From the IMG/VR virus record IMGVR_UViG_3300036886_000019, positions 1 through 24,148 of that record: a stretch of DNA of 24,148 nucleotides. One strand, given 5' to 3'. Under the pieces are notes generated by a model. It was not told the DNA's origin and ran no database searches. It saw only the letters and a program-made list of their open reading frames with translations. The position numbers and the translations under genes are program-made. Below are positions 2,832-23,069 of the stretch, piece after piece (within the stretch, counting starts at the first letter, position 1; the number at the start of each line of letters is the position of its first letter). The DNA is from a virus.

Positions 2832-2857
2832 TTGACACGCTTTTAGATGTGTGTCAA
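2832..2857. repeat. inverted repeat next to cassette boundary
   Basis: TTGACACGC (2832-2840) and GTGTGTCAA (2849-2857) form a 9-bp dyad with one mismatch (a G-U pair as RNA) and an 8-nt spacer. It overlaps the TGA stop of the 866-residue virion gene and touches repeat copy 2. No T-run follows on either strand, so it is as likely a protein-binding site or recombination feature as a terminator. Both arms contain TTGACA when read inwards. Confidence 0.4.
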
Positions 2858-5454
2858 TCGGCATTGGTCGGCCCGCCGTACTGCCGCTCGCTGCGAATGT
2901 CGTGCTTGCCCTTCTGCCTCCACGACCTGCGACCCATCGCGCCCATGCCGCGCTTGGTGCCTTCCGGGTCCTGCAGATAGCCGGGCGCCGGCCGAATGCC
3001 GGACAACATCTCGGGTGTCGAGATGTTGGAGCCTACCTTCTCACCCTTGCCAAGCTGGCGCAGCGAGATAGGTCCAAGGCTGCTCGCAACCCACTTGAAA
3101 TACTGACCCAGCCACGCGGGGCCTTCCGCGTTGGGGTCAGCGATCGGATCGCCACGCCAGTCCTTGCCACGGAACGCCTGACCGACCATGCTGGGTCCGG
3201 TCGCGACCTTGTTCGCCGCCTCCTGCTTCCAGTCGTGATACCAGCCGAACACGTCCTTCTGGTAGCCCGGCATCATGGCGCGCTCTTCGACCTGCCCACG
3301 CCCACCGAAGCCCGGCGCGGTGCCGCCTGTGCGGCCAGCCATCAGGTCGTCAACACTCTCGGGCGCCTTGCCCGTCTTGAGATACTGGTACGTCGCGTTG
3401 GCTGTCGCCACGACGATGGGCAGCGCGATGACGTAGGATGCGCGCGGGCTCCACTGACCCGAGGCGATGTCCTTCACGCCGCCGCCGATCTCGCGCACGG
3501 TGCCTAGGTTCCACGAGTATGAGCGCATGCCGAGCTGCGCCACCTGCTTCATGGTCTTGTTCCAGAATATGTTGTCCTGCACCATCTCGCCGAAGCGGTT
3601 GTCGATCGAGTCCCAGATCTGGCGCGCGGCGGCAACCTGCTCGTCGTAGCCAGCCTTGGGGTGCGTCTCGATCCACGACTGCATCGTGTCGTAGAACGCG
3701 CCGTTCTTGAGTTTGGGAATGTATTTCTCGAAGATGGGCTGCGCCACCGTCTCCATGATGCGGCCGATCTGCTTGAACGCTTCCTTGGGTGCGCCGGTCA
3801 TCGGGAACGACTTCACGTTCTGCATCGACTGCGCCATCTCGGCCTTGAGTGCGCCGCGTTTGAACGCGGTCCAGTACGAGCCCATCTTGGAGTAGCGGTA
3901 GTCAGCAGCGTGGCTCTTGCCGACCGCGCGCCCGCCAGCCTCGGTCTGCAGATCAACCAGTCGGCGGAAGTCGGGCGTGCCTGGAGTGCGGCCGAGATAT
4001 ACCTGCTCGCCCTTATGACCGCGCATGGCGGTACGGATTGGAGCGGCCGGGGCCGAGGCGATGGTACCCAGGCCAGTGATAGGCTTGCCGCCGACGATCT
4101 GGCTGATGCCGCGTGCTACTTCGGAGACGATCGACTCGTTGGCCATCGTGAAGGCGTGATAACCCGAGAGCCCGAGTTCGAGCGAGGTGATGGCGTTGGA
4201 GGCGCCTTGCACGGCGTCGTAGACACGACCCGCTTCCTCGTTGGCATGGAAGCCGCGAGAGATGAAATTATTGTACACGCGCGCCCAATCAGCCGGCGCG
4301 TAAGCCTGCTGGCCCAGCGCATTGGTCGATCCTCGTCCTTCTATCGCGACCCACCCTTCCGGTATTGGCCCGGTTGGCGACACGTTATGTCCGGCGCCGG
4401 GATGACCGGAGGCGCCCATGCTCTTGGGGCTGAAATACTTGATAGTGCCCGCGCTCTTAGCAGCGTCCAGCACCTCGGTCGAGGCGATGAAGCGGTCCAT
4501 GCTCGCTACGTAGCGCATGGTTGCCTCGATCGGATCGGTCGTTACCGGCTTCAAACCCGCCTTGATGCCGTCCGCGATCGTCGGCATGGTGCGCGCCTTG
4601 AGGCTCGCGCCCGAGCCTTGCTTGCCAGGCCCTCGCCCAAAGTTCTCGGCGAACGATGCAGCAGCCTTGGGGTCCTGCCAGTGATGCGGATAATACTCGT
4701 CGATGAACTGCGTCTGCGCGGTCGAGGGCAACGCTTCCAGTTTCTTGCGGCGCAGCTCATAGGCCGTCTTGAGCTTGCCGGCGAGCGGTTCGAGTTCGGT
4801 CGTAGGCTTGGAAGGCCCACCCTCGACGTGGTCTATGAACGCCAAGCGGTCGGCTTCCGGCGCCGCGTTGACAGCTCGGTGAAACGGTTCCATCTCGGCG
4901 GCGGTCGTGGCAGTGTCGCGCGCCGCCTTGCCACCAGCCGAGCGGATCGACGCTTCGGCCGCACCGGCTTCCGGCGAGACAGTAGTGGGAGAGAAAATCT
5001 TCTCGATTATTGTACCTTTGGGCAACGCAGGCATTTTGAGTGCGCCGGGTACTGCCATCACACCCATCAGAGCGGTGTCTATGTCGGCCTTTTTGAAGAC
5101 GCCACCAGTCAATTCTTCAACGCCCTTGCCTACCGCGCTTTGCAGCCCAGTAAGCGGGGATGTCAAGACACCCGCCGTGCCACGGATCACGTCACCGCCC
5201 CTAGATATATCCCACGGCCCACTAGGCCGACGCCACGCGCCTTTTATGCGCTCTACACCTTCACTAGCTTCCTTCTTGATCCAGCCGGGTACGTCAAAAC
5301 CTTTTGGGTCGAAGGCTTCCGGCTCGGCGGTTTTCATTTCGGGTGGCTTGTCTTCGAGCTGAGCAGCAACGGGCGTCCCCGGCCACTGCGGAGTGCTCTG
5401 CTTCGCTGGTGTGCCGGGCCATTGCTGTTGGGTCGGGGTGCCCGGCCAGTCCAT
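2854..5454 (-). CDS. large internal virion (ejection-type) protein, 866 aa
   Basis: This is the last and largest gene of the late operon. The N-terminus has three WPGTP motifs (residues 3-7, 12-16 and 24-28). Residues 80-170 are Gly/Ala/Val-rich and could be membrane-active. A middle region with FIDEYYPHHWQDPKAAASF, followed by a long helical part, resembles the very large phage proteins that travel inside the capsid. The C-terminus is basic (RRSWRQKGKHD) and ends GGPTNAD. Position after two low-complexity virion proteins suggests a role like T7 gp16, the largest ejection protein, but no lysozyme or transglycosylase motif was recognised. The start ATG overlaps the previous stop by one base (TGATG). 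The last five codons are repeated at 543-560. Confidence 0.6.
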   Translation of the reverse strand: MDWPGTPTQQQWPGTPAKQSTPQWPGTPVAAQLEDKPPEMKTAEPEAFDPKGFDVPGWIKKEASEGVERIKGAWRRPSGPWDISRGGDVIRGTAGVLTSPLTGLQSAVGKGVEELTGGVFKKADIDTALMGVMAVPGALKMPALPKGTIIEKIFSPTTVSPEAGAAEASIRSAGGKAARDTATTAAEMEPFHRAVNAAPEADRLAFIDHVEGGPSKPTTELEPLAGKLKTAYELRRKKLEALPSTAQTQFIDEYYPHHWQDPKAAASFAENFGRGPGKQGSGASLKARTMPTIADGIKAGLKPVTTDPIEATMRYVASMDRFIASTEVLDAAKSAGTIKYFSPKSMGASGHPGAGHNVSPTGPIPEGWVAIEGRGSTNALGQQAYAPADWARVYNNFISRGFHANEEAGRVYDAVQGASNAITSLELGLSGYHAFTMANESIVSEVARGISQIVGGKPITGLGTIASAPAAPIRTAMRGHKGEQVYLGRTPGTPDFRRLVDLQTEAGGRAVGKSHAADYRYSKMGSYWTAFKRGALKAEMAQSMQNVKSFPMTGAPKEAFKQIGRIMETVAQPIFEKYIPKLKNGAFYDTMQSWIETHPKAGYDEQVAAARQIWDSIDNRFGEMVQDNIFWNKTMKQVAQLGMRSYSWNLGTVREIGGGVKDIASGQWSPRASYVIALPIVVATANATYQYLKTGKAPESVDDLMAGRTGGTAPGFGGRGQVEERAMMPGYQKDVFGWYHDWKQEAANKVATGPSMVGQAFRGKDWRGDPIADPNAEGPAWLGQYFKWVASSLGPISLRQLGKGEKVGSNISTPEMLSGIRPAPGYLQDPEGTKRGMGAMGRRSWRQKGKHDIRSERQYGGPTNAD
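2856..2873. repeat. 18-nt direct repeat, copy 2 (right boundary of cassette)
   Basis: Second copy of AATCGGCATTGGTCGGCC, identical to 543-560 and 2,313 bp away. On the minus strand it is the last five codons (PTNAD) of the 866-residue virion protein plus the T of its stop. Confidence 0.85.
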
Positions 5455-7244
5455 CAGCGTGTCAACTCCTGACCGTCAGGCGTAACGTATTTCGTGCCTG
5501 GCTTGAGAGCCTGCGCTTCTTCCGGCGTCTTCGGCTTTGCTACGTCGCCCTGCGTGTAGCTCTCGGTCTTCACGGACTTTGGCCCGCCGCCGTTCATCTG
5601 GTTTCGCATAAGCTCAATCTGGTCGCTATAGAATTTGTTCTCCTCCGAGACTAGCGCCCGCGCTACCTTGGGGTCGAGCCCGGTATTCGCCGACTGCGCC
5701 TGAATAACTTCCATTGCGCGCTTGTGCTGCGCATCCACGATCGCGCGCCACTGCCCCAGCTTAGAACGGTCGTTGCCTTGCGTGATCTGCATCTCCAAGC
5801 GCTTGGCCTGTTGCTCCAGCATCTGATGGCGCTGGTCCTGCTGCACAAGTGAGTTGCGGTCCATGCGGCCTTCGCGCCGGTCGAACTCACCTGCTCGTCG
5901 TGTTTCGCTTTGCTGGAACTGGCTCTCTCGTTGTCCGTAGCGCTCGTCGAACTGAGTGCCGCGCTGCGCACGGTTTTTATCGGCGATGTCTTCGCGCGAC
6001 GTGCGGCCCTGCTCGGAGCGCAGCATGCGCCCACCCTCAGCGTACTCGGTCAGCTCCTTGCGTGCGGCTACTCCTAGACTGGCGATCTCCTTGCGCGTCT
6101 CGGCAGACAATTTAGCGCGGTCATCACGAGCCCCCTCGGCGTCACGCTGGCGCAGGTTCTTGCCTGTCTCGCCCATTACCGTCCGGTTGGTCTTGCCCTC
6201 TTCGCCGGCAACGAACCGCCGATCGCGTCCCTCTTCCTTGACGCCTTCCATCTCAAGCCGGGCGGCAGCGATCTCCTTGCGCGCCTTGGCCGAGAGCTTG
6301 GCCATTTCCGTCTTAGTTGAAGCGGACAATTCCGCGCGCTGCTGACGACCGGCTTCGGCAACCCCTTGCCGCGTGTCCTTGCCGGTCTCGGCCACGCCCT
6401 GACGAGCACCCTTGCCCTCTTCAGCAGTGGCCTGTAGCTCACGTCGAAGCTGCTGGTTCTCCTGCGCCAGCTTGTCGCGCTCAGCAAGCGTAGCGTCGAG
6501 CCGCCGGTCCTGACCTTCTTGGCCTTGAGTGTAGCGAGCATCGCGGCCAGCCTCGGCACCCTGCCGGTCCTGGCTGGTAATGTCCTGCCCACGGCGCTGC
6601 GTGTCAGACCGCATGGTGGCGATGTTGGACTGGTTCTGCAGCGACTGCTCGCGCAGTTGCAGGCTCATCTCACGCCACTGCTGCTGGCTCATCTGGTTCA
6701 TCAGCGGCAGGAACTTATCCACAGCCGCCGCGATCACCGCCGGTTTGGCGCCGGGGTTGGCCTGCACGACCTTCTGAATGATCTGCCGCCAGTCGAGCTG
6801 ACCCTGTTGCCCGCCGCCCTGCTGGGGCTGCCCTTGCGGGCCTTGCTGGGGCACCTGGCTCTGCTGGGGCATAGGTTGGCCCCCGCCGCCGGGCTGCTGC
6901 CCGCCACGCGCCATACCTACGAGGCGCTGCAGCAGCATCTGAATGGGGTTGCCGCCTTGACCGCCCTGTTGAGGAGATGGGGGCATGCCGCCTTGCTGCT
7001 GGGGAGGACTACCCTGCTGCTGCGGCATGCCCCCGCCGGGGCTGGTCTGACCCGGCATGCCTTGGCCGGGGGGCGGCCCTCCAGGCATGGGTTGGGCTCC
7101 AGGGACCTGCGCGTTGCCCTGCCAGAGCCGTAGCGTGTTTCCGAAGGCTTCCTGACCCTGAAGGTTAATGTCGCCTTGCTCGTTCGCCTGCTGGCGCTGC
7201 GGCGAGCTGCGAATACCGGCCGATAATTGGTCCCAACCTGACAT
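5454..7244 (-). CDS. internal virion protein with long 11-residue repeat helix, 596 aa
   Basis: The layout is: residues 1-45 polar; 46-150 a Gly/Pro/Gln-rich low-complexity linker; 150-225 helical; 234-450 an unusual array of 11-residue repeats; 455-555 a further helical part; then a short C-terminus (GTKYVTPDGQELTR). In the array Lys or Arg falls every 11 residues at 234, 256, 267, 278, 289, 300, 311 and 322 (position 245 is Gln), then after a 7-residue step at 329 and every 11 residues to 450, twelve in a row. This predicts a very long, nearly straight alpha-helix forming a right-handed coiled coil. Such helices suit ejection proteins that build a conduit across the envelope (compare T7 gp15/gp16), an inference from context. 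ATG 7244 lies 3 bases after the upstream stop. Confidence 0.55.
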   Translation of the reverse strand: MSGWDQLSAGIRSSPQRQQANEQGDINLQGQEAFGNTLRLWQGNAQVPGAQPMPGGPPPGQGMPGQTSPGGGMPQQQGSPPQQQGGMPPSPQQGGQGGNPIQMLLQRLVGMARGGQQPGGGGQPMPQQSQVPQQGPQGQPQQGGGQQGQLDWRQIIQKVVQANPGAKPAVIAAAVDKFLPLMNQMSQQQWREMSLQLREQSLQNQSNIATMRSDTQRRGQDITSQDRQGAEAGRDARYTQGQEGQDRRLDATLAERDKLAQENQQLRRELQATAEEGKGARQGVAETGKDTRQGVAEAGRQQRAELSASTKTEMAKLSAKARKEIAAARLEMEGVKEEGRDRRFVAGEEGKTNRTVMGETGKNLRQRDAEGARDDRAKLSAETRKEIASLGVAARKELTEYAEGGRMLRSEQGRTSREDIADKNRAQRGTQFDERYGQRESQFQQSETRRAGEFDRREGRMDRNSLVQQDQRHQMLEQQAKRLEMQITQGNDRSKLGQWRAIVDAQHKRAMEVIQAQSANTGLDPKVARALVSEENKFYSDQIELMRNQMNGGGPKSVKTESYTQGDVAKPKTPEEAQALKPGTKYVTPDGQELTR

Positions 7245-7247
7245 GTG

Positions 7248-8075
7248 CTATGCAAACATGAACGCGCCGGCCAGATTGCCGAGATCGCCGAGCTGACCCC
7301 ATCCTTGCTGCTGTTGCGAGGTCGTCGCGTTGGTGCCGCCGATCTGGCCCTGATTGAATATCTGGTTCGACTGGTTGCCGACACCGAGGTACGCGAGCAG
7401 ATCCTGTATCGTCGGCTGGCTGGTGCCGGTCGTCGCTCCTATGCCGCCCTGCAAAGCCTGCGTGTTGGCACCCGCCGCCGCGCTCTGCGTCGCGTAGGGC
7501 AGCATGGCTGACTCGACCAGCGCGGACTGCCCAGCGTTGCCCAGCGTCTGCGCGTCGGTGTAGGCGGTATCCGCGCTCTTTATACCGGATTCCTGCCGTC
7601 CAAGCTGCTGGTTCTGCCAGTTGATGTTAAAATTCTGGCCGGACTGGTCGGCCACGCCAGCACCATAGGGCGTCGTACCCACTCCCGACGCCATATTATT
7701 GGCGCGGGCCATGTCCTGATTCTGCTGGAACATCTGGTCGTAAAGCTGTTTCTGCGGGTCGAACGCCGTGTTCATTATTGAATTGGCCCCGCCCTGCAAG
7801 GTCTGCGCCCCCTGCATCGAGCCCTGACCTATGTTGGTCGCACCTGGGATCGTGGACTGCGCGGCCATCGAGCCCGCCTGCCCGCCCGCCGTGTTAGCAC
7901 CCATCTGGGTGTTCATCTGCGGCATGTACTGCGCGAGCAGTTGCTGCAGCGTCTGGTCCATTTGCTGAATACCGCCAGTGGCGGAATTGGCAGACTGCCC
8001 CATGTTGGGCATCTGGAACGTGTTGGTAGGCACGTTGTCCTGATTTGAGCCGAAAAGACTGCCGATGGAGCCCAT
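7248..8075 (-). CDS. Gln/Gly/Asn-rich internal virion protein, 275 aa
   Basis: The composition is strongly Gln, Gly, Asn and Ala with few charged residues and repeated QQ, NQ and GG. It begins MGSIGSLFGSNQDN and ends GDLGNLAGAFMFA; both termini are mildly hydrophobic. In podoviruses a protein of this size just before two larger internal virion proteins is typically an ejection protein (T7 gp14 or P22 gp7 position); the assignment rests on position and composition, not on a recognised domain. AAGGA lies six bases before ATG 8075, and the start shares one base with the GNAT stop (TAATG). Confidence 0.5.
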   Translation of the reverse strand: MGSIGSLFGSNQDNVPTNTFQMPNMGQSANSATGGIQQMDQTLQQLLAQYMPQMNTQMGANTAGGQAGSMAAQSTIPGATNIGQGSMQGAQTLQGGANSIMNTAFDPQKQLYDQMFQQNQDMARANNMASGVGTTPYGAGVADQSGQNFNINWQNQQLGRQESGIKSADTAYTDAQTLGNAGQSALVESAMLPYATQSAAAGANTQALQGGIGATTGTSQPTIQDLLAYLGVGNQSNQIFNQGQIGGTNATTSQQQQGWGQLGDLGNLAGAFMFA

Positions 8076-8590
8076 TAGAAATCCTTCCGGTAAAACATCT
8101 CGAACGGCTTATAGCCCAGCCGCTTGAACAGAATCTCCTGGCGAGACCCGACATCGGCGCCGACATAAGCGCGCTTGACGCCCCACACTTTGCACAGCTC
8201 GTCGTTGTAGCGGAACATCTTCATCGCGAGCATCCCGCCCCGGTAGGCCGGTGACAAATAGAATCCATCAATGAAGCAATGAAGAACGCGCTTAGCGTGA
8301 AGGTGACCACGCACAAGATTGAACACGTATCCGATGAGAAGATCACCATGTCGCACCGTCAGTACGCGCAGGACCCCGCGCAGCCCGAGGTCGAAAAAGG
8401 CGTCCCAGTCTGGGTCCGGCTGCTCTCCGTGCTCCAGACCGTGCTGCTCGAACAGCGGCGGCAGTTCTCTCGCAATCCCGTAGAAATGCTCGACCTGAAA
8501 CGTCGGACCCTTGCTAGGCGCAGCGGGGTCCAAGCGTTGCAGGCGTCTTAGCTGTTTCCTTGCGAGTGGTTTCACGATCGACGCTGCCAC
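8075..8590 (-). CDS. GNAT-family acetyltransferase
   Basis: The C-terminal two thirds show the GNAT pattern: strands with VLRVLTVRHGDLLIGYVFNL, then DGFYLSPAYRGG with an RGGMLA acetyl-CoA pyrophosphate loop (residues 117-122), and a final LFKRLGYKPFEMFYRKDF. GNAT proteins of this type are common beside virion genes in podoviruses; the substrate is unknown. The start is uncertain: the frame opens at GTG 8590 (or GTG 8575), neither with a well-placed ribosome binding site, and both lie inside the 47-residue ORF at 8514-8657. Translation may be coupled to that ORF, or arise by a +1 shift from it. Confidence 0.7.
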   Translation of the reverse strand: MAASIVKPLARKQLRRLQRLDPAAPSKGPTFQVEHFYGIARELPPLFEQHGLEHGEQPDPDWDAFFDLGLRGVLRVLTVRHGDLLIGYVFNLVRGHLHAKRVLHCFIDGFYLSPAYRGGMLAMKMFRYNDELCKVWGVKRAYVGADVGSRQEILFKRLGYKPFEMFYRKDF

Positions 8591-8667: not shown

Positions 8668-9888
8668 TTAGAAGTCGGCCGAGGCGTTGATGATACCGGA
8701 CCCGCCAGCGTCACCCCACGTCGTCGCCGTGCCCAAGGCGCCGCCCGCCGCGCTGTTGGCGCACGACATGAGGACGGACAGGATGCCCGCTACCGACGTG
8801 GCCGTGGTCGATGTCGCGTTGGCCGTACACGCCGTCATGGAGGTCTGCGCAGCGACCGCAATGCCAAACCCGGTCGTGTAGGTCATCGTCGGCACTTTAG
8901 CCATCGGCACCGGGAACGGCACGATGCAGTTCGAGATGCTGGACGTGAGGTTCACGCACGACCCACGCATTGTCGCGGACGACGCCGACTCGGTGACGCG
9001 GTAGAAGTAGCGCTGCGCAGTGGCAAGATCCTGCGCGATGGTGTGGAACTCGAACACGGACGGCGTGTTGCCGATCTCAAGCTGCGTTCCGGTTACGGCA
9101 AATCCATCGGTGGCGCCCGCACCCGACGCGGTCGGGGTGAAGCAGATCAGAACGCCGATCTCCTTCACGGTGGCGCCAATCTGCGCGTTCATGCTGACAC
9201 GCGAAAAGGCGGTCGTGACGGTGAACGCCTGTGTCGCGGCAGTGGCGAGGCCGGTCCAAGCCGGCGTGATAGCCGGCGACGCGGTCATCGTACCGAAGCC
9301 TTCGTCGGCGCTCGTTCCGGTGATCACCGAGATGTTGACCACGCCCGCGTTGTCGGCGACGAGACCGGCGAGGCCAGCGAGATAGGCTGACACCGTGACG
9401 ACCTGACCCTGCGCGGCTACCGACACGCCGGAGGGTAGTTCTTGGATCAGGCAAACGGGCTGCGTGAGCGCGCCCGAGTTACGCCACAGCTTGACAGCCT
9501 GTGCGAATCCGGCAGGTGGTGCGGGCGAGGCAGTGATGACCGCCGCCTGACCGGCGCCGGAAGTGACGTTAGCACTGCAGCCCCAGCGATCGGCGGTGTA
9601 GGCGGCGCTCGTGATGGCGGCGGCTTGCGCACACGTCACCGTGCCAGTGCCGCGCTGCGCGACGTTCATAGCGCCATTGTCGAGCAGATTGCGCGGGCTG
9701 GACGGCGCTGCGAAGTTGGCCGGAGTGACGTTGGAATTGAGCGAGTTGATGATACCGTTGAGCGTCGAGTTGATCTGGCTCGGCTCGTTGGTGGAGGGAG
9801 AGGTGAGCAGCGGGATCGGGGCATAGGCCGCGTAAACCGCTGTTGCAGCGACGACGAGCGCCGCCAGTCCGATCAGAAGCCGTTTCAT
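8668..9888 (-). CDS. signal-peptide-bearing tail fibre protein with carbohydrate-binding-type domain, 406 aa
   Basis: The N-terminus MKRLLIGLAALVVAATAVYA is a clear Sec-type signal peptide. Residues 62-90 carry SSPRNLLDNGAMNVAQRGTG and then AYTADRWGC, the hallmark opening of a widespread phage fibre domain (NLL-NG-F-QRG...ADRW) with a jelly-roll fold. The matching end is present too: GTQLEIGNTPSVFEF, then DLATAQRYFYRV. The mature part has eight cysteines, an even number. It probably binds host surface sugars at the tail tip. AAGGAG lies nine bases before ATG 9888. Signal peptide and cysteines are unusual for a virion protein. Confidence 0.7.
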   Translation of the reverse strand: MKRLLIGLAALVVAATAVYAAYAPIPLLTSPSTNEPSQINSTLNGIINSLNSNVTPANFAAPSSPRNLLDNGAMNVAQRGTGTVTCAQAAAITSAAYTADRWGCSANVTSGAGQAAVITASPAPPAGFAQAVKLWRNSGALTQPVCLIQELPSGVSVAAQGQVVTVSAYLAGLAGLVADNAGVVNISVITGTSADEGFGTMTASPAITPAWTGLATAATQAFTVTTAFSRVSMNAQIGATVKEIGVLICFTPTASGAGATDGFAVTGTQLEIGNTPSVFEFHTIAQDLATAQRYFYRVTESASSATMRGSCVNLTSSISNCIVPFPVPMAKVPTMTYTTGFGIAVAAQTSMTACTANATSTTATSVAGILSVLMSCANSAAGGALGTATTWGDAGGSGIINASADF

Positions 9889-9925
9889 CGTCGCGATCTC
9901 CTTGAAGGCCGTCTAGGCCGGTTGC

Positions 9926-9954
9926 ACACTACGCTCTTGCAAAAGGGGGGTCAA
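9926..9954 (-). promoter_or_regulatory. weak promoter candidate upstream of the 406-aa fibre gene
   Basis: On the minus strand TTGACC (9954-9949) is followed after 17 bases by TAGTGT (9931-9926). The -35 is good and the -10 poor (three of six). It falls in one of the few non-coding gaps inside the operon (9889-9961), so a secondary promoter is possible. Confidence 0.22.
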
Positions 9955-9961
9955 TTGGGGG

Positions 9962-11533
9962 CTAGCCCATGATCTCGTCGATAATCAGGATGCCAGTATT
10001 GGTTGGAACACCTAAACCTGTGCCCAAAAATGACCATGAGTTTGTCCCCGTGTTGTCTTTTCCGTAAACGGCGTACTGCGTTGGAGGCCAATTAGACGAA
10101 GCTGGAACGTCAAGAGCCTCCATGACTGTAGCCGCCGTGAACGATGTATTTCCGGTGGTGCCGGTTGTCCCCGTCATAGTCGCAAGATTCCCTATGGCGA
10201 CCGCGCCGGTATTTCGATGTAGCTGGAGCAGCAATGACTGCCCAGTGGCGGCAATGGATGCTCCTTGCGCTTGTGCGACGGCCCTTACCCGCACCAAATT
10301 TGCGTTGCTTGATACGATTATAGACCCCGCTAGGTTGGTAGCAGTATTAGAGTTGCTGTTGACCGTCGTCGGCGTTGTCGTGGTCGCATATACCGTCTGC
10401 ACCACGTCGCCAGGCTTCTTGATGCCAGGTCCGAACAACTGGGCCTTTGTCGGCACGATGCCGTAAGTGCCAGCCGTCGCGAGGCCCGCGCTGTACTCAA
10501 TATAGCCTACGATACGAAATGCCCCGGCCGTGACTGTCGTTCCGTTCGGAGTATAGAACACGCCTGCGCTCGTAGCCGCCGCGCTGATAGGAACCGACGT
10601 GGCTACGTTAGACTCGACCAGCGGAAATATCTGCGTCGGCGTCGAGCAGTTGATGATGCCGGGTACGAGCGTCCCCGCATTATTGAACATAACTATCCAG
10701 AACCGAAACGGAACACTGTTCGTGGTAGCGAGCGTAGCTCCGGCCGCGTTGGTATCCATCGACAAGGCAGCAGTGGCCGTGACCCATACCGGATCGCCGT
10801 TGGCTATCGTGGCGTCGCGGAACGCGCACAGGATAGGATTAGTCGCGGACGGCGTCGCGCCGTTGTTCCCGTTGAACGTGAGCGTCAGTTTGCTTGCCGC
10901 GACTGACGCCGTGATCGAGAGGTTGCTGCACCCGTCGAACCCAAGCGGCGGGTTGGCCGTACTGAGCTGAATGCCACCAGTACCGGACAGTAACCCCCAG
11001 CCAGCGAGAGGGAACGGCTGTATCTCAAACTGAGTTCCGTCAAAGTAGGCGATGACCAACTGGTTGAGAACAATCTCGCCGCCGGTCAGCGCGGATGGCC
11101 CAGCCGCCGTCGCCTTGAACACATTGGTCGCGCCCTGCGAATTGACGTTGAGCGTCATCGCGAGCGTGTTGGTGAAACCGGCCTTGAAAATGACCGTGTA
11201 GCCAGGCGTCAACGTAAACCCAGTAGGCGCCGTCGTAGCGACGACTTGCGCGTTTAGTGTTCCGGTTGACGTGCCACCAATGTACTGCGTCGAACCACCA
11301 ACGCTCGGGCCGATCGGGGTGGATAGCGCAAGCAGAGAAGTGATGTCGCTATTGGCGCCCGCACCGGCAGCATTGCCCAGGCAAGTGATGAGTGCGTTGT
11401 AGTTTGCCATCACCTGTGTCGCGTCGGCCGTCGTGCCGTTCTGCAAATTGAACGGCACCGAGCAGGTGACACCAGCAAACGCGGCGAGCGAGGTCCACAG
11501 CCAGATCAAACTTCCTAGAACTACGCGCTTCAT
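9962..11533 (-). CDS. signal-peptide-bearing tail fibre-like protein, 523 aa
   Basis: The product begins MKRVVLGSLIWLWTSLAAFA, a signal peptide with cleavage expected before GVTCSVPF. Residues 25-55 (FNLQNGTTADATQVMANYNA) and later GGEIVLNQLVIAYFDGTQFE are typical of phage tail fibre shafts. The rest is Thr/Gly/Ala/Asn-rich beta structure. Five cysteines are seen in the mature part, two near the start (GVTCSV, LITCLG). The C-terminus (SFLGTGLGVPTNTGILIIDEIMG) could be a tip or oligomerisation module. The ribosome binding site AAGGA lies at the end of the 30-codon extension upstream. Role inferred: adhesin or fibre. Confidence 0.6.
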   Translation of the reverse strand: MKRVVLGSLIWLWTSLAAFAGVTCSVPFNLQNGTTADATQVMANYNALITCLGNAAGAGANSDITSLLALSTPIGPSVGGSTQYIGGTSTGTLNAQVVATTAPTGFTLTPGYTVIFKAGFTNTLAMTLNVNSQGATNVFKATAAGPSALTGGEIVLNQLVIAYFDGTQFEIQPFPLAGWGLLSGTGGIQLSTANPPLGFDGCSNLSITASVAASKLTLTFNGNNGATPSATNPILCAFRDATIANGDPVWVTATAALSMDTNAAGATLATTNSVPFRFWIVMFNNAGTLVPGIINCSTPTQIFPLVESNVATSVPISAAATSAGVFYTPNGTTVTAGAFRIVGYIEYSAGLATAGTYGIVPTKAQLFGPGIKKPGDVVQTVYATTTTPTTVNSNSNTATNLAGSIIVSSNANLVRVRAVAQAQGASIAATGQSLLLQLHRNTGAVAIGNLATMTGTTGTTGNTSFTAATVMEALDVPASSNWPPTQYAVYGKDNTGTNSWSFLGTGLGVPTNTGILIIDEIMG

Positions 11534-11539
11534 GTCTTG

Positions 11540-11635
11540 TTATCCTTCTGCAACGGCCTGATTGAACACGCCACCGATAACGGCAGTCCCGGCGCCCGTG
11601 TCGCCTAGGATAAATCCCGGCCCCGTCGTCGGCTA
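11540..11635 (-). other. amber codon followed in frame by 30 sense codons
   Basis: The gene at 11633-11890 ends in TAG (11635-11633). The same frame continues for 30 codons to TAA at 11542-11540, just before the next gene. The extension would read PTTGPGFILGDTGAGTAVIG and then GVFNQAVAEG, protein-like and with G or C in about 19 of 30 third positions. It has no start codon of its own apart from one late GTG. It may be a readthrough product, a recent truncation, or the tail of an ancestral longer gene. Confidence 0.4.
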
Positions 11636-11890
11636 TTTTGGATTCTTTGCTTTGTCCTCTTTGACTATTGCATCCGCGGCCGCCCTTTTTTGCATCGCCT
11701 GCTGTTCCATCTGTACCAACTGATTGATGATCGGGTTGGCGTACTTGGCTGGCACGTCACCGAGATAGAAAAGCAACGCCTGGTGGCCTTGCTCGGTGAT
11801 GGTATAAGGCTCGAACGACGATTGCTGCTGCGCCAGCGCAGGTAGCATCATAAATGCAATGGCGATTGCAATAGTGCAGAATCTCAGCAT
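11633..11890 (-). CDS. small secreted protein in fibre block, 85 aa
   Basis: A signal peptide (MLRFCTIAIAIAFMMLPALA) is followed by QQQSSFEPYTITEQGHQALL and a helical, Gln/Lys-rich rest (QLVQMEQQAMQKRAAADAIV). ATG 11890 is chosen because AAAGGA lies six bases upstream; the frame also opens at ATG 11911, which abuts the upstream stop (TGATG), but that start would put charged residues before the hydrophobic stretch. It lies between two fibre genes and may be a fibre chaperone or accessory secreted with them; no family is recognised. The TAG stop is followed by an in-frame extension (see 11540-11635). Confidence 0.6.
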   Translation of the reverse strand: MLRFCTIAIAIAFMMLPALAQQQSSFEPYTITEQGHQALLFYLGDVPAKYANPIINQLVQMEQQAMQKRAAADAIVKEDKAKNPK

Positions 11891-11907
11891 GTGGTTCCTT
11901 TCTCTCA

Positions 11908-14136
11908 TCACCTGTACGCGATGTAGTTGACAACGATCGTCGCACCTGGCGTTCCAGTCTTTGTGTAGGTCAACGTAAAACCGTCACTGTCGAAGCTTGC
12001 CACTACTGCGGTAGTAAATGAATAGAGACCTGGGTCGTCCGTCATAATGAGTGCAAATGCACCGTCGGAATGGGCGGCATTGCTTGTTCCCGTATTATCC
12101 ATAGTTAGCGCGTTTGCTCGTCCAGCCTTTGAACTGCCTACAAATCCCGATCCAGTAAATGATGATGCGCCGGAATAATATGACCAATTAAATAAAATAG
12201 ACGTCGGCACAAATCCTACGCCTGTATAGGCGACGCTGTTGCTTGCCGTGCTCAAGGCCCGCGTAAAAGTACCGGTTTTGCTCGATAGCCCCGTCGCGCT
12301 GATCGAATTGCAGCCGAATGCGTGCGTGCTGGTGTTATAGGTTAGCGCGCTCGAAGCCGCGCTGCACGATCCAATCGAGACGGCAGTAGGCGATGCCGAA
12401 CCGCCGGTCGCGTTGACCACTGCCGTGTCGGCCGACTGCGTGGCGAGGATTGAAAGCGGAATAGTCCCAGCACCGACGACTGTGCCGCCGAAGGTCGGGC
12501 TGGTCAGCGTTTTATTGGTCAGCGTCTGGGATGCGGCAAGCGCCACTAGCGTATCGTTCGCCGCCGGGAAGTGTAGCGTGAAGTTAGATGCTCCGGCGTT
12601 GTCGCTGGTGAACGTCGTGAATCCCGTCGATGATCCGAGCAGCAGCAGGTCGGAGTTCGTGAAGGTCTGCGCTGCGGTCCACGTGTTTGCGTGCCCGAGC
12701 GCGAGCGAGGCGATCACCGAGCCGGTCGTCGGGCTGATCGTCAGCGTGCCGTCGCTGTTCGATACCGACGACACGGCCGCCGCTCCGGAGCACGACCCCC
12801 AGGTCGGTGCCGCGTTGGAGCCGCTGAGAAGACATTGTGATGCGGTTACAGTACCCGCGAGGATGTTTAACTTCGATGCGTCGGAATAGACGATGCCGCC
12901 GTTGCTGGCGGTCAGCGCGTTGTTCGTCCCGCCGTTGGCGAGCGCGAAGCCCGCGAGCGTATCGGTCACATCCGGCAAGGTCAGCACCGCGCTGCCGAGC
13001 GCGCCCGCCGGCGGCTGGAGTTTGACGGTGCCACTGGTGACGTTGGCGAACGCTAAGGTGCCGACCGAAGTCCCGGCGACTCCAAGCGTCGGTGTCACAG
13101 TCCACGCCGGAGCTGTATTCACGCCGCCCGAAGCCAGAACAGATCCGATGGCGACGTCGGCCAGGCGCGACCACGTCGGGGTCGTGGCCGAGGCGTACAT
13201 GATGTCGCCGATGGCGGCGGTCGCGAGCCCCGTCCCGCCGTTCACGCCGGGCAGCGCGTTGGTGACTTTGGTAGTTAGGTCGATGCTGCCGGCCAGCATC
13301 GTGTTGGTAACGCTACCCGTGTCGCCGCTGGTGATGACCGTGTAGGACGATAGGTTTGGAAAGGTGATCGTGTTTGTGGTCGTGCCGAGCTTGATTGTGT
13401 GCGCGACGTTGCCGACGTCGAGCGTCTGGGTCCTACCAGCCGTAAGCGTGGCCGAAGTCGAAGTCGCCGCCAGCGTCACGTCGAATGCGGCAGTGGTATC
13501 GCGGATTGCGAGGCCGGTCAGCCCGGTTGCAGTTCCTCCGGTGATCGCTACTGACGATGCCGCCTGAGTCGCCATAGTCCCGACGGTCGTCGTGCATCCT
13601 GTCGCACTATCGGAAAGCGACGCGCACGTCGGGCGCGATTTGCTGATAACGCCGGCCGCCGAGATCGCGCTGACGTAATTGTTCGCCGCCCCAGTATCGG
13701 CGACGACGGTCGTGCCGACGGTGCCGGCCGGATTATTGTCGTGGAAGCGCGCATCGGTGCTATCGGTCCAGATCGAAACCTTGCCCGCCGCCGGGGTGCC
13801 TGGCGCCGCTATCTCCGTCGTAAGTAACGAACCAGCCACCGTGACGCCGGTCGGGAGGTTGACGACGGTCGCGGGTACCGATCCGGAACCAGTCGCCGTC
13901 ACGTCTCCGGTAAGCCCAGTGATAGCCGACCCGGCGGTCGTAGATAATACGCCGCCTGACAAGTTTAGCCCTGTACCTACAGTTACGGGAGCCAACAGGC
14001 CGGACGAGTTTCCGAGCAAGTTCCCCGAAGCCGTCCCGTCAACAACAGAATGGAATATGCCGTCGTCGCGCAGATAGTTCTGCGCCTGCGCGCTTGTCGC
14101 CAACAAAACCAACGCTATGGCCAGGAGCCTTCGCAT
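11908..14136 (-). CDS. main tail fibre / receptor-binding protein with signal peptide, 742 aa
   Basis: The N-terminus MRRLLAIALVLLATSAQA is a Sec signal peptide with AQA cleavage before QNYLRDDGIF. The body is Gly/Thr/Ser/Ala-rich beta-repeat shaft with well-known fibre phrases: GGIVYSDASKLNILAGT, SNSDGTLTISPTTGSV, and ASQTLTNKTLTSPTFGG, the phage tail repeat. The last 130 residues form a compact domain (GTFTRALSTASNSVAYTGVG onward, ending TIVVNYIAYR), likely the receptor-binding tip. Six cysteines occur as three local pairs (PTCASL/TGCTT, SQCLLS/GSCSG, GSCSAA/FGCNS). It shares one base with the hub stop (TGATG). Being largest and first after the hub, it is probably the primary fibre. No chaperone-type autoproteolysis motif was seen. 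Confidence 0.65.
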   Translation of the reverse strand: MRRLLAIALVLLATSAQAQNYLRDDGIFHSVVDGTASGNLLGNSSGLLAPVTVGTGLNLSGGVLSTTAGSAITGLTGDVTATGSGSVPATVVNLPTGVTVAGSLLTTEIAAPGTPAAGKVSIWTDSTDARFHDNNPAGTVGTTVVADTGAANNYVSAISAAGVISKSRPTCASLSDSATGCTTTVGTMATQAASSVAITGGTATGLTGLAIRDTTAAFDVTLAATSTSATLTAGRTQTLDVGNVAHTIKLGTTTNTITFPNLSSYTVITSGDTGSVTNTMLAGSIDLTTKVTNALPGVNGGTGLATAAIGDIMYASATTPTWSRLADVAIGSVLASGGVNTAPAWTVTPTLGVAGTSVGTLAFANVTSGTVKLQPPAGALGSAVLTLPDVTDTLAGFALANGGTNNALTASNGGIVYSDASKLNILAGTVTASQCLLSGSNAAPTWGSCSGAAAVSSVSNSDGTLTISPTTGSVIASLALGHANTWTAAQTFTNSDLLLLGSSTGFTTFTSDNAGASNFTLHFPAANDTLVALAASQTLTNKTLTSPTFGGTVVGAGTIPLSILATQSADTAVVNATGGSASPTAVSIGSCSAASSALTYNTSTHAFGCNSISATGLSSKTGTFTRALSTASNSVAYTGVGFVPTSILFNWSYYSGASSFTGSGFVGSSKAGRANALTMDNTGTSNAAHSDGAFALIMTDDPGLYSFTTAVVASFDSDGFTLTYTKTGTPGATIVVNYIAYR

Positions 14137-16010: not shown

Positions 16011-16754
16011 TCACCACCCCAGGGCTTTCGTGTTCCTTAACCGATCGAACGACGAGCCGAACCGGCGCCGATCGAGCGACACAGTCTGGGATCGGTTCTC
16101 CTTGTCGCCCTTCATTTTTAGATACTTGCGCAGCATGACCCCGGCGCCGGACGGGTGCTGCTCCTCGTTGTCCGACAAGAACTGATCCATGCGCGTATCG
16201 TCGCTCAACGCCATCAGCTCGCCAGCGAGACGGCGGCGCAAATAAGTCTGATTGGGAAACCACGGTATCGTCGTCGATGTCTCGGGCGTCGCGATGTCCG
16301 GCATCTGCGAGTAATAGCGGACCAGCGCCGGATAGGCGCCCGAAGGTATCATCCAGAAAAACGCACGAGGAGGAACGACGCTGGTATCGACAAAGAAAAA
16401 TACCGGGTAGTTCGACAAACCGGACTGCGACACCAGAGCGTCGAACTCATTCTGATCCACCGGGATCATGGGGTAGGGCACGCCGCTTATGACGTAAAAA
16501 CATTCCTTCGCAATGCCGCGCAAATAGTCGGTAGGGAAGTCCTGATAGCCTTGCGGCAAGTCTCCGGTGACAGCGTAAGCCACCTGCCCAGGATTGAAGG
16601 TGAACTGGTAAGTCTTGCGCGTCGTCTCAAAGTCGTAGGTCTGACAGAGGTCCGACAGGATCATGTTGAGCAACTGACCGGCCTGCGCCACCATACCAGG
16701 TACGCGAGCATCCTGCGTTGCCAACGCCACGATCTGCTGAGCCTGTAACGGCAT
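16011..16754 (-). CDS. head-tail adaptor (neck) protein, 247 aa
   Basis: The first half is helical (QIVALATQDARVPGM, GQLLNMILSDLCQTYDFE), followed by a beta-rich middle (TYQFTFNPGQVAYAV, YPMIPVDQNEFDALV, FFWMIPSGAYPALV) and a basic C-terminus. A helical bundle plus embedded beta structure, this size, and a place immediately before the hub gene match podovirus tail adaptors (T7 gp11 or P22 gp4 position). The motif-level match is weak and the call rests largely on gene order. GAGG lies just upstream of ATG 16754, six bases after the preceding stop. Confidence 0.5.
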   Translation of the reverse strand: MPLQAQQIVALATQDARVPGMVAQAGQLLNMILSDLCQTYDFETTRKTYQFTFNPGQVAYAVTGDLPQGYQDFPTDYLRGIAKECFYVISGVPYPMIPVDQNEFDALVSQSGLSNYPVFFFVDTSVVPPRAFFWMIPSGAYPALVRYYSQMPDIATPETSTTIPWFPNQTYLRRRLAGELMALSDDTRMDQFLSDNEEQHPSGAGVMLRKYLKMKGDKENRSQTVSLDRRRFGSSFDRLRNTKALGW

Positions 16755-21832: not shown

Positions 21833-22164
21833 CACGGTTTTCTGTTTATCTGGTCAACGACCATCGTCAACCGATCAACCGCCTTTGTGACAAATTCGTT
21901 TGCCGTTTTCAAACTAGAAACATCTGTAGATTGCGTGTTGACCTTATTGGCCACGTCTTTCACGGCGACCCATATAGCCGCGTTCGCCGTGCGTATTTCC
22001 GTCTTGATGTCTGAAACAGTGGCAATCATGAAGTAGCCGATTACGGAGAGTGCGATCGGCATGAAGAACCGAGCGAACGCTATCGCAACCGTGCTGTCCA
22101 CAACCCGACGCAAGGGCTCCTTCGACCCCGGCGCCTGTAGCTCCTGATTGCCTGTGCCGCTCAC
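21832..22164 (-). CDS. N-anchored coiled-coil membrane protein of the lysis block, 110 aa
   Basis: After about 25 polar residues comes one membrane span (AIAFARFFMPIALSVIGYFM, about 27-46), then a helical part of about 60 residues with coiled-coil spacing (KTANEFVTKAVDRLTMVVDQ). The layout resembles an inner-membrane spanin (Rz-like: N-terminal anchor, periplasmic coiled coil), but no embedded outer-membrane lipoprotein partner was found. It could instead be a holin or antiholin. The start is GTG 22164, the only available start, overlapping the upstream stop as GTGA. Confidence 0.55.
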   Translation of the reverse strand: MSGTGNQELQAPGSKEPLRRVVDSTVAIAFARFFMPIALSVIGYFMIATVSDIKTEIRTANAAIWVAVKDVANKVNTQSTDVSSLKTANEFVTKAVDRLTMVVDQINRKP

Positions 22165-23069
22165 GGCTTAGCTGGCAACGCAGGCGGCGCGGCGACCGTT
22201 CCAATACCGGCCGTCGGAGCGGCAGCAGTCGGCACGGCCGATGTGCCGATCACAGGCACCTTAGCGCAGATGCTCGCCAAAGAAATACCCAGCGGAACCG
22301 GAGCCAGCGCGTTCACTGTGTTGGTCGCATCAAGAAACATCTGCCCGCAATTCGGGTTGGCGCAAATCTGGTTCATGCCGATTGCCAGCAAGCGGAAGGC
22401 TTCGATGTCGCTCGCTAACTTCAGGTTAAGTGGCAGCGGATGAACCTTGAGCAATTCGCCAATGCCGTTGAACTGCAACCAGCAAGCGTTGCCGACCGGG
22501 TCCTGCAGACCGGGGATTTGCGTGCTGAGTGTGATTGCACCAGAGATATCGGCCAAGTCGGTGAGGAACTTCGTAATGTCCTCGGTCTGCTTTGCCTCGA
22601 TCGCGTTGGCGATCGTAGTACGCGGGCTGTTGATAATGCCGCCAGGGACGCCGAAAGCGTCACGAGGTTTAGGAACTTGCGTGTGGCCGATCGTCGGCAT
22701 GAACAGCGAGCCGAGGGCCAGGATGACCACGAGAGCTGCAGCCGCCTTCGGCGCGATGGCCGGTGCGAGCGCCGCCGATATGACCTTCGGCTGCGTCGGG
22801 TCAGCGGCCGCAGCAGCAGCACCGTCGTCCGCGCTGGTCTTGACGATGATCTGCGCGACCCCCGGCATGGCGGTAACAGCCGCGATCTTCTGACCGTCCG
22901 TGTGGACGTACATGCTCCAAACAATCGGCGCGAGCATAAGGACCGCACCAGAAATCTGCTCCCACATGGCACCATTGATACCGAGGGAGCCGTGAGCGAC
23001 GACGAGCGTGCCGACAACAGATAGCACTGTCCGCAGAAGACTGAGTAGCTGAGCGCCGTTAGGTGTCAT
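22161..23069 (-). CDS. enlarged holin-like membrane protein, 302 aa
   Basis: Residues 1-60 have two membrane spans (about 7-27, LLSLLRTVLSVVGTLVVAHG, and 37-55, WEQISGAVLMLAPIVWSMYV) in the manner of small two-span phage holins (Pam3-gp28-like). A segment KIAAVTAMPGVAQIIVKTSA and an Ala-rich linker lead to a third span (about 109-128). A 170-residue domain with four cysteines (196, 236, 241, 268; C236 and C241 in CANPNC) and a Pro/Ala-rich tail follow. Holins are normally about 70-150 residues, so this appears to be a holin fused to an extra, perhaps periplasmic, domain. AGGAGG lies five bases before ATG 23069. Confidence 0.6.
   Translation of the reverse strand: MTPNGAQLLSLLRTVLSVVGTLVVAHGSLGINGAMWEQISGAVLMLAPIVWSMYVHTDGQKIAAVTAMPGVAQIIVKTSADDGAAAAAADPTQPKVISAALAPAIAPKAAAALVVILALGSLFMPTIGHTQVPKPRDAFGVPGGIINSPRTTIANAIEAKQTEDITKFLTDLADISGAITLSTQIPGLQDPVGNACWLQFNGIGELLKVHPLPLNLKLASDIEAFRLLAIGMNQICANPNCGQMFLDATNTVNALAPVPLGISLASICAKVPVIGTSAVPTAAAPTAGIGTVAAPPALPAKP

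Follow-up and report, generated by a model that had tools for sequence, protein, structure and literature searches.

Can the fibres of a tailed phage be exported from the host cytoplasm and still serve the virion? In textbook tailed phages, adhesins are taken to be produced and attached within the reducing cytoplasm. The question is raised by four consecutive minus-strand genes in a 24,148-base virus record (IMG/VR IMGVR_UViG_3300036886_000019, positions 1 to 24,148; hereafter the window), each encoding a protein with a predicted signal peptide: P0001, a fibre-like protein of 742 amino acids (aa) (11908..14136; signal peptide at residues 1-18, 14136-14083); P0002, a small, probably exported helical protein of 85 aa (11633..11890; residues 1-20, 11890-11831); P0003, a 523-aa fibre of family 1, described below (9962..11533; residues 1-20, 11533-11474); and P0004, a 406-aa fibre with a PHROG 4492 tail-fibre domain (8668..9888; residues 1-20, 9888-9829). 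The record comes from an uncultivated phage of podovirus-like type, whose family comprises soil viruses of bacteria; the four genes are part of its tail-fibre block, and relatives point to an alphaproteobacterium as the most likely host. As argued below, these proteins very probably fold, with disulfide bonds, outside the cytoplasm.

N-termini were scored not with SignalP but with a home-made Sec heuristic that combines n-region charge, h-region hydropathy and the -3/-1 rule (threshold 5.3), tuned by eye and calibrated on eight signal peptides known from E. coli. The scores were 7.5 for P0001, 6.4 for P0002, 6.1 for P0003 and 7.1 for P0004, all within or above the range of the known signals (5.4-6.8), while the remaining genes of the window reached at most 5.0. 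By this measure, all four have the features of Sec and signal peptidase I substrates: a basic n-region, a hydrophobic h-region and small residues at -3 and -1. Only 0.5-1% of random N-termini drawn from the mature composition of each protein reached 5.3; therefore, four consecutive signals are not attributable to chance. The start codon of P0001 and the stop codon of the preceding tail gene share bases (TGATG), and the starts of P0002, P0003 and P0004 are each preceded by a good Shine-Dalgarno sequence. Thus, the scores and the sound starts confirm the Sec-type N-termini that the original prediction had placed on the genes starting at 14136, 11890, 11533 and 9888. Cleavage of P0001 is predicted between MRRLLAIALVLLATSAQA and QNYLRDDG; among the sites proposed earlier, that of P0004 proved ambiguous, as cleavage is possible after A17 or A20. 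The closest relative of P0001 (L024) retains a signal peptide (score 6.9), of which just 8 of the 17 post-Met residues are identical. In 17 long related contigs, the score was passed by 47 of 127 fibre-like genes versus 8 of 507 ordinary genes.

Is the signal peptide an integral part of these proteins, or has it been added to an existing fibre? Relatives were sought via the 624-aa tail protein encoded directly upstream of P0001 (14136..16010, minus strand; nozzle position, no signal peptide), a syntenic anchor that led to 24 related viral contigs. There, the gene after the nozzle gene often encodes a fibre starting LPFxLxNGTTADATQVMANxN; some of these fibres have a signal peptide ahead of this motif and others do not. 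A wider search for this family 1 yielded 87 distinct copies, of which 67 lie on phage contigs, while bacterial chromosomes carry the other 20. They have a conserved N-domain (58% mean pairwise identity over the first 40 residues) and a modular-fibre-like C-terminal part (15-30%); P0003 itself has the conserved N-domain, including Cys24 and Cys51, and a variable C-terminal part. Cleavage was predicted 11 residues ahead of the NG motif in 34 of the 42 scored phage copies with a signal peptide. In copies without one, the distance from the initiator Met to this motif is 12 residues in 14 cases, 13 in 6 and 14 in 3, often with a stop codon immediately upstream of the start. The mature N-terminus would thus be nearly identical in both forms, and since the signal-less homologues begin within two residues of the predicted cleavage site, the signal peptide appears to be an add-on module.

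A further line of evidence comes from the cysteines. Even cysteine numbers are favoured in exported proteins of Gram-negative bacteria (PMC7678975), a precedent for the use of parity. The counts given in the original prediction hold: P0001 has six cysteines in three local pairs (171/181, 435/449 and 591/609), and P0004 has eight (86/104, 146/249, 311/321 and 354/376). The single cysteine of P0002 is located within its signal peptide, and its mature part is free of cysteine. Across all phage loci, complete fibre-like phage proteins with a minimum length of 150 aa were compared: the mature cysteine number was even in 139 of 151 with a signal peptide versus 75 of 175 lacking one, and, when each 30%-identity cluster was represented by a single randomly chosen member, in 58 of 66 (binomial p 2e-10) versus 30 of 65. 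When only the window and the 17 long contigs were counted, even numbers were found in 44 of 49 fibre-like proteins with a signal, in 15 of 37 without and in 118 of 269 other signal-less proteins.

The pairs themselves follow the signal peptide. In family 1, the residues corresponding to Cys24 and Cys51 of P0003 were both present in 46 signal-bearing copies and both absent in 17, and a single one was never seen; among 24 signal-less copies (one, L042, being ambiguous), none had both and six had one of the two. Bacterial copies account for 20 of the 46, and on phage contigs alone the signal-bearing copies comprise 26 with both and 17 with neither, with no pair in any signal-less copy. In the eight signal-bearing copies of the P0004 family, columns 86/104, columns 146/249 and a further, alternative pair are each gained or lost as a unit, except that L100 deviates at one pair in an alignment-dependent manner. 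The adhesin domain of P0004 is common to PHROG 4492 tail fibres (tblastn), such as the putative tail fibre of Puniceispirillum phage HMO-2011 and that of Synechococcus phage S-N03; the signal-less relatives of this type that were examined have no paired cysteines and keep an unpaired one in a CQRYY motif (59 of 59), whereas this residue is replaced by Ala or Asp in 8 of 8 signal-bearing copies. The few available collar-domain sequences show the same trend, from LACDG without a signal to LFEDG or LSENG plus new cysteines with one. Parity and pair counts are inflated by relatedness, which is offset by the clustered parity test and by the use of three unrelated domain families. The family-1 tree (66 columns) is weakly resolved and too short for such a correction, with at least 10 changes of signal-peptide state on the best tree; just one independent pair lies on the starred branches, so a sign test of signal peptide against cysteine pair has no power.

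Cysteine parity, covarying pairs, the loss of conserved free cysteines (P0003, with five cysteines, being the exception to an even number) and signal-less homologues starting where the others would be cleaved together indicate that these proteins very probably fold outside the cytoplasm, and strongly support the export option of the original prediction. The survey of related phages that it had proposed gave cysteine pairs that track the signal peptide. It had also held that homologues lacking the hydrophobic N-terminus would speak against it; such homologues exist, but they lack the cysteine pairs as well, which favours the export of the signal-bearing forms. The same data bear on another of its options, namely, that the hydrophobic N-terminus anchors a protein remaining in the cytoplasm to the tail hub or a membrane. 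Hydrophobic N-terminal segments are indeed present, and that proposal is the sole source of the idea. However, the conserved distance between cleavage motif and NG motif, the same-position homologues that work without a hydrophobic segment, and a related exported protein whose signal is of the Tat rather than the Sec type all speak against an anchor, as do cysteine parity and pair covariation, which need an oxidising compartment: nothing would drive a cytoplasmic protein to shed its free cysteines and acquire paired ones. We therefore reject this option as very improbable.

If the proteins are exported, are they still parts of the virion? P0004 matches PHROG 4492 tail fibres (E 9e-24), and P0003 relatives with a signal peptide match tail collar domains and tail PHROGs; P0001 and P0003 themselves gave no family match in PHROG or Pfam. 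When viral contigs were searched with the P0004 sequence alone, no match was obtained; the P0004 alignment did give matches. The structural model of P0004, of low confidence (mean predicted local distance difference test score, pLDDT, of 58), resembles carbohydrate-binding modules in PDB and tail-fibre and CenC-like proteins in BFVD; the P0003 model has a mean pLDDT of 52, and both models are too weak for disulfide distances. The fibre identity proposed earlier thus stands for three fibre-like proteins and fails for P0002, which is a small helical protein. A homologue of P0002 (40%, with a signal peptide) occurs in another contig of the group (L194/G012; L194 around 8107-8277), in a second block of signal-bearing genes. 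One idea is that P0002 may act as a periplasmic fibre chaperone.

In the window and its relatives alike, the four genes lie directly downstream of the nozzle-position gene. In related contigs of 40-47 kb, two sets of genes encode signal peptides, the fibre block and a second block situated among terminase and portal genes, and none was found in these contigs on nozzle, adaptor, capsid or internal proteins. Most signal-bearing contigs of ~44 kb, which are possibly incomplete, encode no signal-less fibre-like protein beyond the nozzle, minor head and internal proteins, and signal-less homologues of the signal-bearing fibres occupy the same genomic place. Tail-fibre and collar domains, the position after the nozzle gene, the signal-less homologues found there and the general lack of other fibre candidates suggest that the signal-bearing proteins have a role in the virion. 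A genome-wide switch, with all fibres exported or none, was rejected, given mixed states in L062, L104, G003, G006, G018, G020 and G021. Outside the group, the Manatee Spring phage assembly (MW202637; L200:25580-26113) has a signal peptide before a fibre-like N-terminal motif (ITANDLNAALTHL), and Caulobacter phage Kuura has no signal-bearing fibre by the heuristic.

Alternatively, the proteins could be exported without joining the virion, as soluble adhesins or enzymes released at lysis that coat receptors on debris and neighbouring cells, sparing progeny wasted adsorption or excluding rivals, or that loosen extracellular polysaccharide. Enzyme-like exported proteins in the second block, which holds a GH18-domain (chitinase-family) protein with a Tat-type signal near the portal gene (L196, 8717-10162) and a LamG-type lectin, are consistent with such a role, as are the carbohydrate-binding-module-like fold of P0004 and exported N-domain copies in host chromosomes with no phage genes nearby. 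Several further observations weigh against virion fibres: signal-less fibre-like proteins are also encoded by G003 and G006; in L062 and L104, a signal-less family-1 fibre adjoins a signal-bearing gene; signal-bearing N-domain homologues in rhizobial chromosomes adjoin exported RHS-repeat proteins; the cysteine count of P0003 is odd; and no case in which tail fibres are added to virions from the periplasm is known to us. A purely secreted role would, in turn, leave most signal-bearing contigs without any other receptor-binding-like protein, and it fits poorly with genes packed tightly after the nozzle gene, down to the TGATG overlap, and with close signal-less homologues in the same place. Mixed states within genomes and chromosomal copies beside RHS proteins keep this explanation alive, and we regard it as possible, at the level of a substantial minority probability.

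The chromosomal copies raise a further question: could the genes be secreted cargo of host origin that serves the host cell and has no function in the phage cycle? N-domain copies with a signal peptide and the same cysteine pair occur in the chromosomes of Rhizobium, Bradyrhizobium, Mesorhizobium and Reyranella, some of them beside RHS genes, which indicates that the exported form also exists outside phages. N-domain, signal peptide and cysteine pair are common to both groups, but the host-encoded proteins are chromosomal, with RHS-repeat partners, whereas the window genes belong to the structural operon of a phage that would lyse its host through a holin. Phage copies are also mostly separate from host copies, on a tree that is poorly resolved. 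A host-serving cargo is therefore improbable. Five of the chromosomal loci (L129, L133, L134, L140 and L146, from Bradyrhizobium, Reyranella, Rhizobium and other alphaproteobacteria) have the copy next to an RHS-repeat mini-protein of ~100 aa and an RHS-type protein of 1000-2000 aa (Pfam being checked in L129 and L134), and Rhizobium tropici has four exported fibre-like genes of this kind in tandem (L139:7597-12172).

The remaining genes of the window, likewise on the minus strand, bear on how the particle would be assembled. In order of transcription, they begin with a partial portal-like gene, a 302-aa holin-domain protein (Phage_holin_10; 22161..23069; Pfam PF23987, E 1e-8), which points to holin-based lysis, a capsid protein, called from a weak Pfam match and from similarly weak hits to annotated major capsid proteins in tblastn, a 247-aa SU10-type head-tail adaptor without a signal peptide (16011..16754; Pfam PF24175, E 8e-9) and the 624-aa tail protein. 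P0001-P0004 follow, and directly after the fibre block come a GNAT-type acetyltransferase gene (8075-8590; PHROG 1249, E 2e-8) and three large putative internal proteins of 866, 596 and 275 aa (2854-8075). The latter are free of cysteine, as are their positional counterparts in most related contigs, which would fit ejected proteins crossing an oxidising periplasm. No cultured relative was found in the phage collection with the fibre, nozzle, capsid, portal or terminase as queries.

Starting from the signal peptides, the conserved cleavage sites, the even and paired cysteines and the tail-module position read from these sequences, we propose periplasmic folding and oxidation of the fibres. They would be made with cleavable Sec signal peptides and delivered to the periplasm, where the signal would be removed and the fibres would fold and form disulfides, a step for which sequence evolution provides support. 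DNA-filled particles would meanwhile be assembled in the cytoplasm with their tails still bare, since the capsid, adaptor, nozzle and putative internal proteins lack a signal. Once holin and lysin open the cell, the particles would meet the mature fibres, which may dock on the tail via the N-domain that they have in common with signal-less tail fibres, in line with the late attachment listed among the options of the original prediction. That fibres mature in the periplasm and attach to the virion at lysis is the explanation we prefer, although we judge it evenly balanced between right and wrong; the wider statement, that a phage clade splits assembly between a cytoplasmic head and tail tube and Sec-exported, periplasm-oxidised fibres that join at lysis, we advance tentatively, at slightly less than even confidence.

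How does this compare with exported phage proteins already described? The superinfection-exclusion protein Spackle of T4 is exported to the periplasm, where its signal is cleaved and it is disulfide-bonded (PMC7677548), but Spackle is a small early inhibitor of the tail lysozyme, whereas the window genes encode mostly large fibre-like proteins in a structural block. A Spackle-type role was rejected, as three of the four proteins are 406-742 aa long and the structural module contains all four genes, P0002 being excepted. Secreted and signal-arrest-release (SAR) endolysins (fOg44 Lys44, P1, JG068) are routed through Sec and in some cases controlled by disulfides (PMC6116005, PMC3765740). They are lysis enzymes, with uncleaved signals in the SAR type, whereas the window proteins are fibre-like with predicted cleavable signals, and no peptidoglycan-cleaving domain appears among the Pfam and PHROG matches of the four. 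Late addition of preassembled fibres is known from T4 (PMC3185693). Sec-routed phage proteins and late fibre addition are thus familiar; exported tail fibres appear to be new as far as the literature was searched, with no report found in a search that covered few subscription papers or preprints.

If the proposal is correct, exported, disulfide-locked fibres would give phage adhesins new options for stability, and the infectivity of such phages would depend on the Sec and disulfide-forming machinery of the host. Such fibres would probably misfold if expressed in the E. coli cytoplasm, and a signal peptide combined with an even number of cysteines would provide a sequence rule for recognising adhesins in viral dark matter.

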